Source: Microbaculum marinisediminis (GTDB lineage Bacteria > Pseudomonadota > Alphaproteobacteria > Rhizobiales > Tepidamorphaceae). Taken from it: a stretch of 64,000 nucleotides of DNA. The stretch lies in the NCBI RefSeq assembly GCF_025397915.1, contig NZ_JALIDZ010000002.1:496001-560000 (forward strand). Reading direction: 5' to 3'. The position numbers and the translations under genes are program-made. The notes under the pieces are model-generated. The model made no database searches and was not told the DNA's origin. It saw nothing but the letters and a program-made list of their open reading frames with translations. Positions 5,351 to 8,945 of this stretch are shown here, in pieces. Position 1 is the first letter of the stretch, and each line of letters opens with the position of its first letter.

Positions 5351-5683
5351 ATGAAAATCAAAGCCCTGATCGTCGCGAGCCTCGCCGGCGCGAGCACCCT
5401 CGCCGGCGCGACCACCGCACACGCCCAATCCGCCGACCCGATCGTCGGGGAGGTCCGGACCTTCGCCGCGGACTGGTGTCCGAGAGACTTCCTGCCGGCG
5501 GACGGACGCCTCCTCCCGGTCGGCGGCGTCTACGTGAAGCTGTTCAGCCTCTTCTCCAACAAATTCGGCGGCGACGGCCGGCGGACCTTCGCGCTGCCGA
5601 TGCTGAAGCCCGAGGTCGACGTCAACGGGAAGACGCTCATCCGCTGCATCGCCTACGACGGCCAATATCCGGCGCGGCCGTAA
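5351..5683 (+). CDS. Exported single-domain phage tail collar-like protein
   Basis: A 110-residue protein. The signal peptide is about 25 residues (MKIKALIV to AHAQ). It is followed by one domain with the layout of the phage tail collar / microcystin-dependent-protein family: GEVRTFAADWCP, DFLPADGRLLPV, LFSLFSNKFGGDGRRTFALP. In phages and phage-like particles this domain sits at the tail fibre base. Here it is preceded by an export signal and stands alone. No other phage genes are nearby, so it is more likely a secreted or periplasmic stand-alone protein than a prophage remnant. Two Cys (DWCP and LIRC) could form a disulfide. Function unknown. Confidence 0.72.
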   Translation: MKIKALIVASLAGASTLAGATTAHAQSADPIVGEVRTFAADWCPRDFLPADGRLLPVGGVYVKLFSLFSNKFGGDGRRTFALPMLKPEVDVNGKTLIRCIAYDGQYPARP

Positions 5684-5741: not shown

Positions 5742-8700
5742 TCAGTCGAGCGGAACGATCGCGCCGTAGACGTCGTCTCGCCCCTTGCTGGCGGCCTCGC
5801 CCGTCCAGGTGATGGCCAGGTCGCCGGTGGCAAGCGCGGCGGTGGCGGGCTGCCACTGATCGCCCGCGGTCGCGTCGTTGACCCGGTATTCCGCGCCATA
5901 CGGATCGCCCCCGGCGTCGAAGACCTGCCCGTAGACCCCGTGGCCGGCCCCGTCCTGCCCGGTCGACGTCCAGACGACCGCGAAACCTCCGCCGGCGAGG
6001 CCCGCCGCCGAGGGCTCGGACTGGTGGTTCGCCGCCGTGGTGTTGATCTGGACCTCGGCGCCCGCGGGTCTGCCCCGCCCGTCTAACCGCCGCGCGACGA
6101 TCCCGTAGCCGGACCCGTCCTGCTGCAGCGAGGCCCAGCTTGCCAGGACCCCACCGTCGGCCAGGGCCGCAAGCGACGGCGTGCGCTGATGCTCCGCCGT
6201 GGTGGTGTTGAGCGGGATCTCGGCGCCCTTCGGCCGTCCCCGCTTGTCGAGGCGCCGGGCGAAGAGCCCGTAGCCGGACCCGTCCTGTTTCTGGGATTCC
6301 CAGGCGACGACGAAGCCCTTGCGGCCGAGCGCGGCCACCGCCGGCGCGGCCTGGCTCCGGGCGGTGGTGCGGTTGATCAGGAGCTCACGGCCCCTCTTGC
6401 GCCCCGAGGCGGTGAACGCCTGGGCGTAGATGCCCTTGCCCGACCCGTCCTGCCGCGCCGACTCCCAGACGACGACGAAGCTGCCGTCCGCCAGGCTCGC
6501 GACCGCCGGACGGGTCTGGTTGCCGCGGGCATGCGTGTTGACCTGTATCACCCGGCCCGCCGGCTTGCCGTTGCGGCGGAAGACCTGGCCGGCGATGCCG
6601 AACCCGCCCCCGTCCACGCCCTTGGCCGCCCATACCGCGACGAAGCCGCCCCGACGCAGCGCCGCCACGGCGGGATCGGTCTCGGCGCGGCCGGTGCCGC
6701 GACTGACGGAAAAGTCTTTGCCGGCGGGCTGCCCGGACGCGCGGAACCGCCGGCCCTCGATACCCGACGCCCCGCGAGCCTGCGCCCGCCAGACCACCAC
6801 ATAGCCGGACTTCACCGCGGCCATCGCGGGCTGCTGTTGCGCCTTGCGCCGGTCCGGACTCACCGCGACCGCATCGCCCGGTTCCACCACCGGCGGCACC
6901 GATGCTGCCTCGACGGTGACGGTGATCGTGCCGGAGGTGTCGCCCAGCCAGTCGCTTGATCCGGCATAGACGACGTGGATGGCGTGCGTCCCGACGGGCA
7001 GCGTCACGTCGAGGCTCACCGCGCCGCCCGACAGGGAAATGTCGCCGGCGAGCGGGGTCGCGCCCTTGCGGAAGCTGACCATGCCGTCCGGGGTGCCGTT
7101 TGCCGGCCCGAACGCGGAAACGGTCGCCGTCAAGGTAACGGACTGGCCTTCCGCCACGATCAGGGACGCGGCGCTGATCGCCGCCGTCGCGGCCCCCTTG
7201 TTGACCGTGTGCGCGATCCCGACCGAGGCGGAACCGGCGAAATTCGCGTCACCGTCATAGTCCGCGGTGATCGAATGCGCGCCGACGGACAGCGCCGTTA
7301 CGGAGAGCGTGGCGACGCCGCCACCGTCCAATGCCGCCGTGCCGAGAACCGTCGGACCATTCCGGAAGGTGACGATGCCGCCCGGCGTTCCGGCGGCGGA
7401 CGCCACGGTGGCGGTGAAGGTCACGGCCTGGCCGGTGACCGTCGTGTTCGTCGACGATGCGATACCCGTTGACGAGACGGCCTGATCGACCTGCTGCGCA
7501 AGGCCTTCGGATACGCTGGGATCATGGCTCGCCGCTCCGGGATAGGCTGCCGTGATGGTGCGCGCCCCGCCCGACAGGGCAGTCGTGGAGACCGTCGCGA
7601 CGGAATAGCCGCGCAGATCGCCCACGGCGTAGCCGCCGGCAGCGAGGGGGACGGCGGCCGCGTTCGTGTTCCCGGTAGCGGCCTGGCCATCGTTGTTGTA
7701 GCCCCAGCATCGCGCCGTCCCATCCTGCATAATCACGCAACTATGGAACTCGCCGGTCGCAAGCGCGGCGACGCCACCGGTCAGGCCGCTCGGCGTCACC
7801 GGGACCGCGCTGCCGGTTGCCGAGCCGTGGCCGAGCTGGTCCAGGGACCCGTCACCCCAGCAGGAGACGGCGCCCGAGCCGGACAGCGCGCAGGTGTGGC
7901 CGTATCCCGCGTCGACCGCGACGATGCCGGTCAAGCCGCCGGAAACGGAAACCGGAGACGGTCTGTATGACGTCGAGCCGTCGCCCAACTGCCCCAGATT
8001 ATTGAGGCCCCAGCACGCGATACCGCCGGCCACCAGCACCGCGCAGGAATGACCCGGGCCCGCAGCGACATCCCCAGCGGGACCGCCGAGACCGGCGACC
8101 GTTATCGCGGACTCGCTGTCGTTGGGCTTGTTGCCGTCGCCGAGCTGGCCATTGGAATTGTCGCCCCAGCATTTCACCGCCCCGCCCTCGATCACGGCGC
8201 ATGCGTGATCCGCTCCGGCCGCGAGCGCGATGACGCGTTCGGTCAGATTGCCGATGGCGATGGGCGTGGAAACCGCCGCGGGCCCGGGCGTCGGGTCGCC
8301 GCTTCCCCAGCACATCACCCCGCCCGCCTGCAACGCCGCGCAGGAGAACTGAGAGCCGGTGGCGACGATCGTCGCCGGGCCGCCCAGTCCGCTCACCGTG
8401 ACCGGCGTGGCCTGATAGAAGCCGCTGGGCGCTCCGGTCTGGCGGTCGTCGTTGAGCCCCCAGCAGGCCACGCCGCCGTCGTCGAGCAGCGCGCAGGTGT
8501 GTTTGGAATGTGAGTCGATACCGCGAACGCCGGAGGCGAGACCGCTGACGTCAACCGGGGTCAGACTGTCGCCGGAAGCCGCGTCACCCAATTGGGTGTC
8601 GCTGTCGTCGCCGACGCACTGGACGCCGCCTGCGGCGGTGAGGAAGCACGAATGATAGAGGCCGGGAGCCAGGGGCGCGCCATGCCCGACCCTGTCGAGC

Positions 8701-8945
8701 GTCCCGGTGCCGAGGGTCGCGGGCCCGTCCTTGAAGGTGACGTCGCCGTCCGGCGCGCCGCCGCCGGAGACCGTGGCGGTGAAGGTCACGTTCTGGCCCA
8801 CGGTGCTCGGGTTCAGTGTGCTTTCGACCCGGGTGGCCGTCGGGCCGGCCTGGGCGGCATTGACCGCGACCATCACACCGACCAGCGCGACGGCGGCCCG
8901 GCGAACAGGATACCGCCCGCCGGCGCCAGAAATGCAAAACCGCAT
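5742..8945 (-). CDS. Large exported protein: Ig-like domains with RCC1 propeller insert and C-terminal repeat array
   Basis: A 1067-residue secreted protein from ATG 8945; a slightly longer frame lacks support. Order: signal peptide (1-33, ending AQA); first part of a Big_3-type Ig-like domain (34-84); seven RCC1-type units (about 95-440), each with an H/F-(S/T/A)-C...CWG core; remainder of that Ig-like domain (about 447-487, VATVSTTALSGGARTITAAY); two more Ig-like domains (about 490-680); then seven tandem repeats of about 55 residues (about 695-1067). The repeat pattern is PAVAAL..GGFVVVW.S..QDGSG.GI, ending in N. Each RCC1 unit has paired Cys, fitting disulfides outside the cytoplasm. The N-terminal domain is interrupted by the propeller, an unusual design. 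Function unknown; adhesion or surface binding is a guess. Confidence 0.85.
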   Translation of the reverse strand: MRFCISGAGGRYPVRRAAVALVGVMVAVNAAQAGPTATRVESTLNPSTVGQNVTFTATVSGGGAPDGDVTFKDGPATLGTGTLDRVGHGAPLAPGLYHSCFLTAAGGVQCVGDDSDTQLGDAASGDSLTPVDVSGLASGVRGIDSHSKHTCALLDDGGVACWGLNDDRQTGAPSGFYQATPVTVSGLGGPATIVATGSQFSCAALQAGGVMCWGSGDPTPGPAAVSTPIAIGNLTERVIALAAGADHACAVIEGGAVKCWGDNSNGQLGDGNKPNDSESAITVAGLGGPAGDVAAGPGHSCAVLVAGGIACWGLNNLGQLGDGSTSYRPSPVSVSGGLTGIVAVDAGYGHTCALSGSGAVSCWGDGSLDQLGHGSATGSAVPVTPSGLTGGVAALATGEFHSCVIMQDGTARCWGYNNDGQAATGNTNAAAVPLAAGGYAVGDLRGYSVATVSTTALSGGARTITAAYPGAASHDPSVSEGLAQQVDQAVSSTGIASSTNTTVTGQAVTFTATVASAAGTPGGIVTFRNGPTVLGTAALDGGGVATLSVTALSVGAHSITADYDGDANFAGSASVGIAHTVNKGAATAAISAASLIVAEGQSVTLTATVSAFGPANGTPDGMVSFRKGATPLAGDISLSGGAVSLDVTLPVGTHAIHVVYAGSSDWLGDTSGTITVTVEAASVPPVVEPGDAVAVSPDRRKAQQQPAMAAVKSGYVVVWRAQARGASGIEGRRFRASGQPAGKDFSVSRGTGRAETDPAVAALRRGGFVAVWAAKGVDGGGFGIAGQVFRRNGKPAGRVIQVNTHARGNQTRPAVASLADGSFVVVWESARQDGSGKGIYAQAFTASGRKRGRELLINRTTARSQAAPAVAALGRKGFVVAWESQKQDGSGYGLFARRLDKRGRPKGAEIPLNTTTAEHQRTPSLAALADGGVLASWASLQQDGSGYGIVARRLDGRGRPAGAEVQINTTAANHQSEPSAAGLAGGGFAVVWTSTGQDGAGHGVYGQVFDAGGDPYGAEYRVNDATAGDQWQPATAALATGDLAITWTGEAASKGRDDVYGAIVPLD

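Follow-up and report, generated by a model that had tools for sequence, protein, structure and literature searches.

The protein of 1067 aa that is encoded at positions 5742 to 8945 on the minus strand of the window carries an RCC1 propeller that is nested inside an Ig-like domain and does not stand as an in-line domain. The window is the whole stretch of 64,000 nucleotides from Microbaculum marinisediminis that was analysed. The gene starts with ATG at 8945 and stops at 5742, and a purine stretch (AGGGGGG) lies directly 5' of the ATG. The features of the gene are as follows.

5742..8945, minus strand: whole gene of the multidomain protein of 1067 aa, a stop-free open frame.
8847..8945, minus strand: predicted Sec-type signal peptide, residues 1-33 (RR, hydrophobic stretch, AQA-G), from reading of the sequence.
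8694..8843, minus strand: front half of the first Ig-like domain (Ig1), residues 35-84, strands A, B, C and C' (Big_3_5 positions 3-49; model strands 5-11, 22-32, 37-42 and 45-51).
7620..8675, minus strand: RCC1 propeller, residues 91-442, seven units (RCC1_2 and RCC1 profiles, Foldseek and Cys co-occurrence).
7473..7604, minus strand: back half of Ig1, residues 448-491, strands E, F and G (Big_3_5 positions 49-87; model strands 413-423, 429-437 and 451-456).
7188..7472, minus strand: Ig2, a continuous Ig-like domain, residues 492-586 (Big_3_5 84.8 bits; seven model strands that pair one-to-one with those of Ig1).
6876..7187, minus strand: Ig3, a continuous Ig-like domain, residues 587-690 (Big_3_5 61.3 bits).
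5745..6875, minus strand: second array, residues 691-1067, seven units of 51-55 residues (unit profile and alignment).

The Pfam search of the protein identified RCC1_2 (PF13540; E=4e-45, 151 bits against a cut-off of 22) in seven stretches, RCC1 (PF00415; E=5e-26, 91.3 bits against a cut-off of 21.7), the RCC1-like domain (E=3e-54), and Big_3_5 (PF16640; E=7e-47) in four stretches. Ig3 is a third Ig-like domain between Ig2 and the C-terminal array that is added here to the layout given by an earlier note on this DNA. The protein is probably exported, judging from the Sec-type signal peptide that was read from its sequence, and similar N-termini in its paralogues and in the proteins of congeners are also read as signal peptides. 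No LPxTG, PEP-CTERM, or RTX signature was found in the protein. Adjoining the 3' end of the gene, the plus strand of the window encodes a small signal-peptide protein (5351-5683) with a phage tail collar domain (PF07484, E=5e-13), which is unusual in an exported protein.

The Ig pieces of the protein were scanned separately against Pfam. The front half of Ig1 matches positions 3-49 of Big_3_5 (38.5 bits) and the back half matches positions 49-87 (30.2 bits). When both halves are joined without RCC1, they give a single match over positions 3-87 that is above the Pfam cut-off (67.1 bits), while the reversed joining exhibits two half matches only (53.4 bits). Ig2 and Ig3, the uninterrupted domains used for comparison, also score above the cut-off. 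The complementary half-profiles, the single match of the joined halves, and the fallback to two matches in the wrong order therefore denote a break that is exact and complementary. The interruption spans about 363 residues and contains a complete propeller. The claims of the earlier note that Ig1 is split into halves resembling the continuous Ig2, and that seven RCC1 units lie between them, are both borne out by these profile matches.

The structure of the nested unit was predicted with AlphaFold2 (AF2) for residues 32-586, since a whole-chain alignment placed relatives of the second array onto RCC1. For the input alignment, the window protein was combined with four proteins of congeners and with 29 RCC1 stretches taken from elsewhere. 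The model (pLDDT 92.5, pTM 0.86) exhibits strands A-B-C-C' of Ig1, then 28 RCC1 strands in seven groups of four, then strands E-F-G of Ig1, and finally the seven strands that form Ig2. The RCC1 strands are located between C' and E, and the predicted insertion site is therefore the C'-E loop of Ig1. The two halves of Ig1 would pair in space, as suggested by strands of high confidence that follow the Ig order. Foldseek with this model identified UVR8 (6xzm; E=6e-30, TM 0.87 by target length) as well as HERC2 and RCC1, and the predicted fold of the RCC1 part is that of a seven-bladed propeller. The usual Ig topology has the B-C, C'-E, and F-G loops at the pole opposite to the C-terminal end of the domain. 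The C'-E loop would thus be remote from the domains that follow, and the propeller would form the head of an Ig stalk.

The opposite reading is that RCC1 is an independent in-line domain and that the Ig halves are a chance resemblance or the remains of two decayed domains. An in-line order of RCC1 followed by Ig does exist elsewhere, in a protein (L014) with 14 RCC1 units and an Ig domain about 105 residues downstream. However, the halves of Ig1 are complementary at Big_3_5 position 49, the strand order of the model places RCC1 inside Ig1, and a search of other proteins for this insertion found the junction again in 20 more units. Shuffled controls also argue against chance in the two outlying cases described below (G204 and G073). 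We consider the in-line reading highly improbable. An in-line domain, which the earlier note had set against its own proposal, was looked for in the half-profiles, the model, and the further units and was not obtained, and sequence and prediction support the nested insertion of RCC1 in Ig1.

Each of the seven RCC1 units has one pair of cysteines at positions i and i+10 (100/110, 151/161, 202/212, 249/259, 301/311, 352/362, and 403/413). Both positions are aligned in 1047 RCC1 units, of which 884 have the two cysteines, 161 have neither, and two have a single one (Fisher p of about 1e-190, for units that are not independent of one another). The co-occurrence counts inside the genus are 158 and 1. 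In the model, the two cysteines are on adjacent strands in every blade hairpin. The almost perfect co-occurrence makes disulfides very likely, and this covariation supports the suggestion that the paired cysteines stitch the blades. The RCC1-domain tree exhibits deep forks that are mostly unsupported, and its nested and plain labels missed several nested rows.

The C-terminal 377 residues consist of a second array with the unit consensus PavAaL.dGGFvVvWeS..QDGSGyGiyaqrfda.G.p.G.e..vNttta. The count of seven units with a spacing of 51-55 residues agrees with the previous description of this third of the protein as seven repeats of about 55 residues. Residues 691-1067 do not match any Pfam or NCBIfam family above cut-off or any solved PDB structure. 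Seven units were also counted with the unit profile in about 13 further, distinct arrays from the order, one of which makes up nearly all of a 412-residue frame. Some divergent relatives have fewer detectable units. A constant seven-fold count is expected of a seven-bladed propeller. The array also begins with a lone first strand and ends with a short last unit, which is consistent with ring closure by the N-terminal strand. On this reading of the repeats, the second array is likely a seven-bladed propeller of an unclassified family.

Relatives of the second array exhibit marginal matches to GH43 (E=5e-4, in one of four arrays scanned), to the endo-arabinase 5c0p (E=0.46), and to the delta-60 repeat (E=0.016). 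These matches agree with the propeller reading and prove nothing. We rejected the assignment of the second array to the GH43/endo-arabinase propellers because the array of the window is unmatched and the single relative that matches does so marginally and below the Pfam cut-off. GH43 propellers are five-bladed, unlike the seven units seen here, and the likeness of the array to the GH43/endo-arabinase-type propellers and the delta-60 repeats is confined to these marginal profile matches.

Many proteins from the order contain the 'GGFVVVWES..QDGSG.GIYAQRF' repeat, mostly in seven units, and neither Pfam nor NCBIfam has a model of it. One of these proteins (L068, G000:C10, 2343 aa) has the putative propeller N-terminal to an N,N-dimethylformamidase-like domain, DUF4082, and cadherin-like repeats. 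The search of viral contigs identified one relative of the second array by profile and two more by DNA pattern. A putative viral contig (L193, IMGVR_UViG_2718218026_000003) has a 1936-aa frame with five blocks of the second-array type, 363 residues apart, which is apparently a chain of propellers.

The window genome has eight nested genes at five loci. The seven paralogues of the window gene are located at four other places, with one tandem of three and one of two. Their layout consists of a signal peptide, the front half of an Ig domain, six to seven RCC1 units, the back half, and one further Ig domain; the second array is absent from all seven. No conserved neighbour genes were seen at the four paralogue loci examined. 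Two congeners have at least 13 more intact nested units, and the 21 intact units in the three genomes of the genus are all at the same site, with junctions that match column by column in the alignment. The nested units have diverged, with 36-43% identity to that of the window. Nested units have seven RCC1 repeats each, except for one with 14 and two with six. One congener protein of at least 3252 aa, which ends at the contig edge (L089, G004:C45:1-10600, minus strand), consists of five nested units with 14, 7, 7, 7, and 7 RCC1 units and plain Ig domains between some of them. The same genome (G004) also encodes Ig domains with a seven-unit second array and without RCC1 (L090 and L091), so the protein of the window may have arisen by fusion of the nested-RCC1 and the Ig plus second-array gene types.

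A profile built from 19 nested units was run on 297 genomes of the order, 398 of the phylum, and 385 of the class, where the three sets overlap. End-to-end matches were identified only in the genus and in one genome of another family (G204). The remaining matches cover the RCC1 part alone or nearly so, with the exception of G073, and about 1,000 other genomes searched exhibit plain RCC1 propellers at most. In the genomes of 84,980 species, a pattern-based scan that is far from exhaustive yielded 51 RCC1 or Ig loci, and only one of them is nested. That locus (L013) is a 'Tepidamorphus sp.' MAG contig that is one of the congener contigs.

The G204 protein (1189 aa) exhibits nesting at the same site, followed by HYR and RTX repeats, and its joined halves score 44.5 bits. 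The G073 protein (L151, G073:C5:43000-51000, minus strand, 1643 aa) has RCC1 inserted in the B-C loop of a Big_3_5 domain. Its front half matches Big_3_5 positions 1-21 and its back half positions 29-81, and the joined halves score 66.4 bits over positions 1-81. The C-terminal end of this protein, which comes from another family, is an NHL propeller, in parallel to the window protein. Both arrangements were not found in the other sampled members of their respective families. Chance likeness of the Ig halves was ruled out by shuffling for the joined halves of both proteins, while the front half of G204 alone is weak. By these profile positions, the insertion in G073 is at another site of the Big_3_5 family and is most simply explained by a separate event.

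Every member examined has an acidic RCC1 part (net charge of -4 to -33), and the terminal Ig domains of ten paralogues carry +21 to +34 in about 95 residues. A strongly basic C-terminal Ig domain against an acidic RCC1 head was observed in the paralogues L064, L065, L066, and L067 of the window genome. The window protein has a net charge of -19 in RCC1 and +14 in the second array. From the probable export, divergent heads, gene multiplication, and charge polarity, our best guess, which we hold with modest confidence, is that the protein is an exported binding protein held at the surface or in the matrix, with a ligand-recognising head and a basic end on an anionic polymer. A disulfide-stitched acidic propeller with both ends fixed in the C'-E loop would be presented as the head on the Ig stalk and would bind a protein or glycan ligand. 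A positively charged C-terminal module would take the place of an anchor, namely the Lys/Arg-rich Ig domain in the paralogues, and Ig3 together with the net-positive, putatively seven-bladed second propeller in the window protein. This basic end may attach the molecule to anionic polymers of the envelope or matrix. Precedents for such a protein are BLIP-II, which is a secreted binder of the RCC1 type (PMC9218822), and the propeller adhesins Bap1 and RbmC (PMC10102183). The protein could also stay in the periplasm.

We regard it as unlikely that the protein is instead a secreted inhibitor or decoy, in which a BLIP-II-like head blocks a periplasmic or extracellular enzyme of competitors or phages and the Ig domains are a spacer. 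The many paralogues would then each have different targets, which the divergence of the nested units would suit. To our knowledge, BLIP-II lacks both an Ig stalk and a basic anchor, and a basic C-terminus, as in the paralogues, points to a protein that is retained and does not diffuse away. This alternative does draw on the fact that RCC1 and BLIP-II belong to one propeller group in which BLIP-II is a secreted binder of the RCC1 type (PMC9218822).

We give a similarly low probability to a structural envelope or matrix protein without a specific ligand, in which propellers and Ig domains are bulky, protease-resistant, disulfide-hardened blocks of a surface or biofilm layer. The chain of five nested units in the long congener protein, the disulfides, and the many copies per genome would fit such a role. 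However, it leaves unexplained the divergence of the RCC1 heads and the pairing of two different propeller families in one protein.

Neither RCC1 propellers nor Big_3_5 domains are new, and domain insertion is in itself a known phenomenon. A literature search of mainly open-access papers identified no published case of RCC1 nested in an Ig domain; an RCC1 insertion in Ig loops that occupies two sites and is expanded in one genus is new relative to that literature. The insertion of a complete propeller, apparently on two independent occasions, into loops at one pole of a single Ig family is a clear natural example of domain insertion, and it suggests that the Big_3_5 family tolerates and orients large inserts. 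The pole of the B-C and C'-E loops is where the CDRs of antibodies lie. We tentatively propose that Big_3_5 is a general docking scaffold whose loops at the CDR pole (C'-E in the genus and G204, B-C in G073) took a whole RCC1 propeller more than once, and that the genus may have built diversified propeller-headed receptors from it, with eight genes in the window genome, as many as five heads on one chain of a congener, and one case with a second, unclassified family of seven-bladed propeller. These cases may be of use for understanding the diversification of bacterial surface receptors and for the design of display scaffolds. The second array is apparently a widespread repeat family for which Pfam and NCBIfam hold no model.

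Comparing the window protein to known systems, its RCC1 part is similar to the RCC1/BLIP-II propellers (PF13540, PF00415, and PF25390; UVR8, RCC1, the HERC2 RLD, and BLIP-II) in having seven RCC1 units, the same profile, and the same predicted fold. It differs from them in its probable export by a signal peptide, in the cysteine pair of each blade, and in its location inside an Ig loop, and the eukaryotic function is not implied. The joined Ig1, Ig2, and Ig3 are all similar to the bacterial Big_3_5 proteins, whereas Ig1 is unlike them in being interrupted by a complete propeller. In integrins, too, a loop of a host domain carries an inserted binding domain. The integrin beta I-like domain is inserted in the Ig-like hybrid domain. 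The host of the integrin alpha-I domain is a seven-bladed propeller, in which it follows blade 2 and precedes blade 3 (PMC10518620). In contrast, the propeller of the window protein is the insert and not the host, and there is no sequence relation between the two systems. The Vibrio cholerae biofilm adhesins Bap1 and RbmC combine a propeller with a positively charged sticking part and act as 'double-sided tape' (PMC10102183), as the head and the basic end of the window protein would. Both Bap1/RbmC and the window protein are modular, with export being predicted for the latter, and both combine a propeller with a positive module; the likeness is an analogy only, since Bap1 and RbmC have an eight-bladed propeller of another family and beta-prism lectin domains where the window protein has Ig domains.
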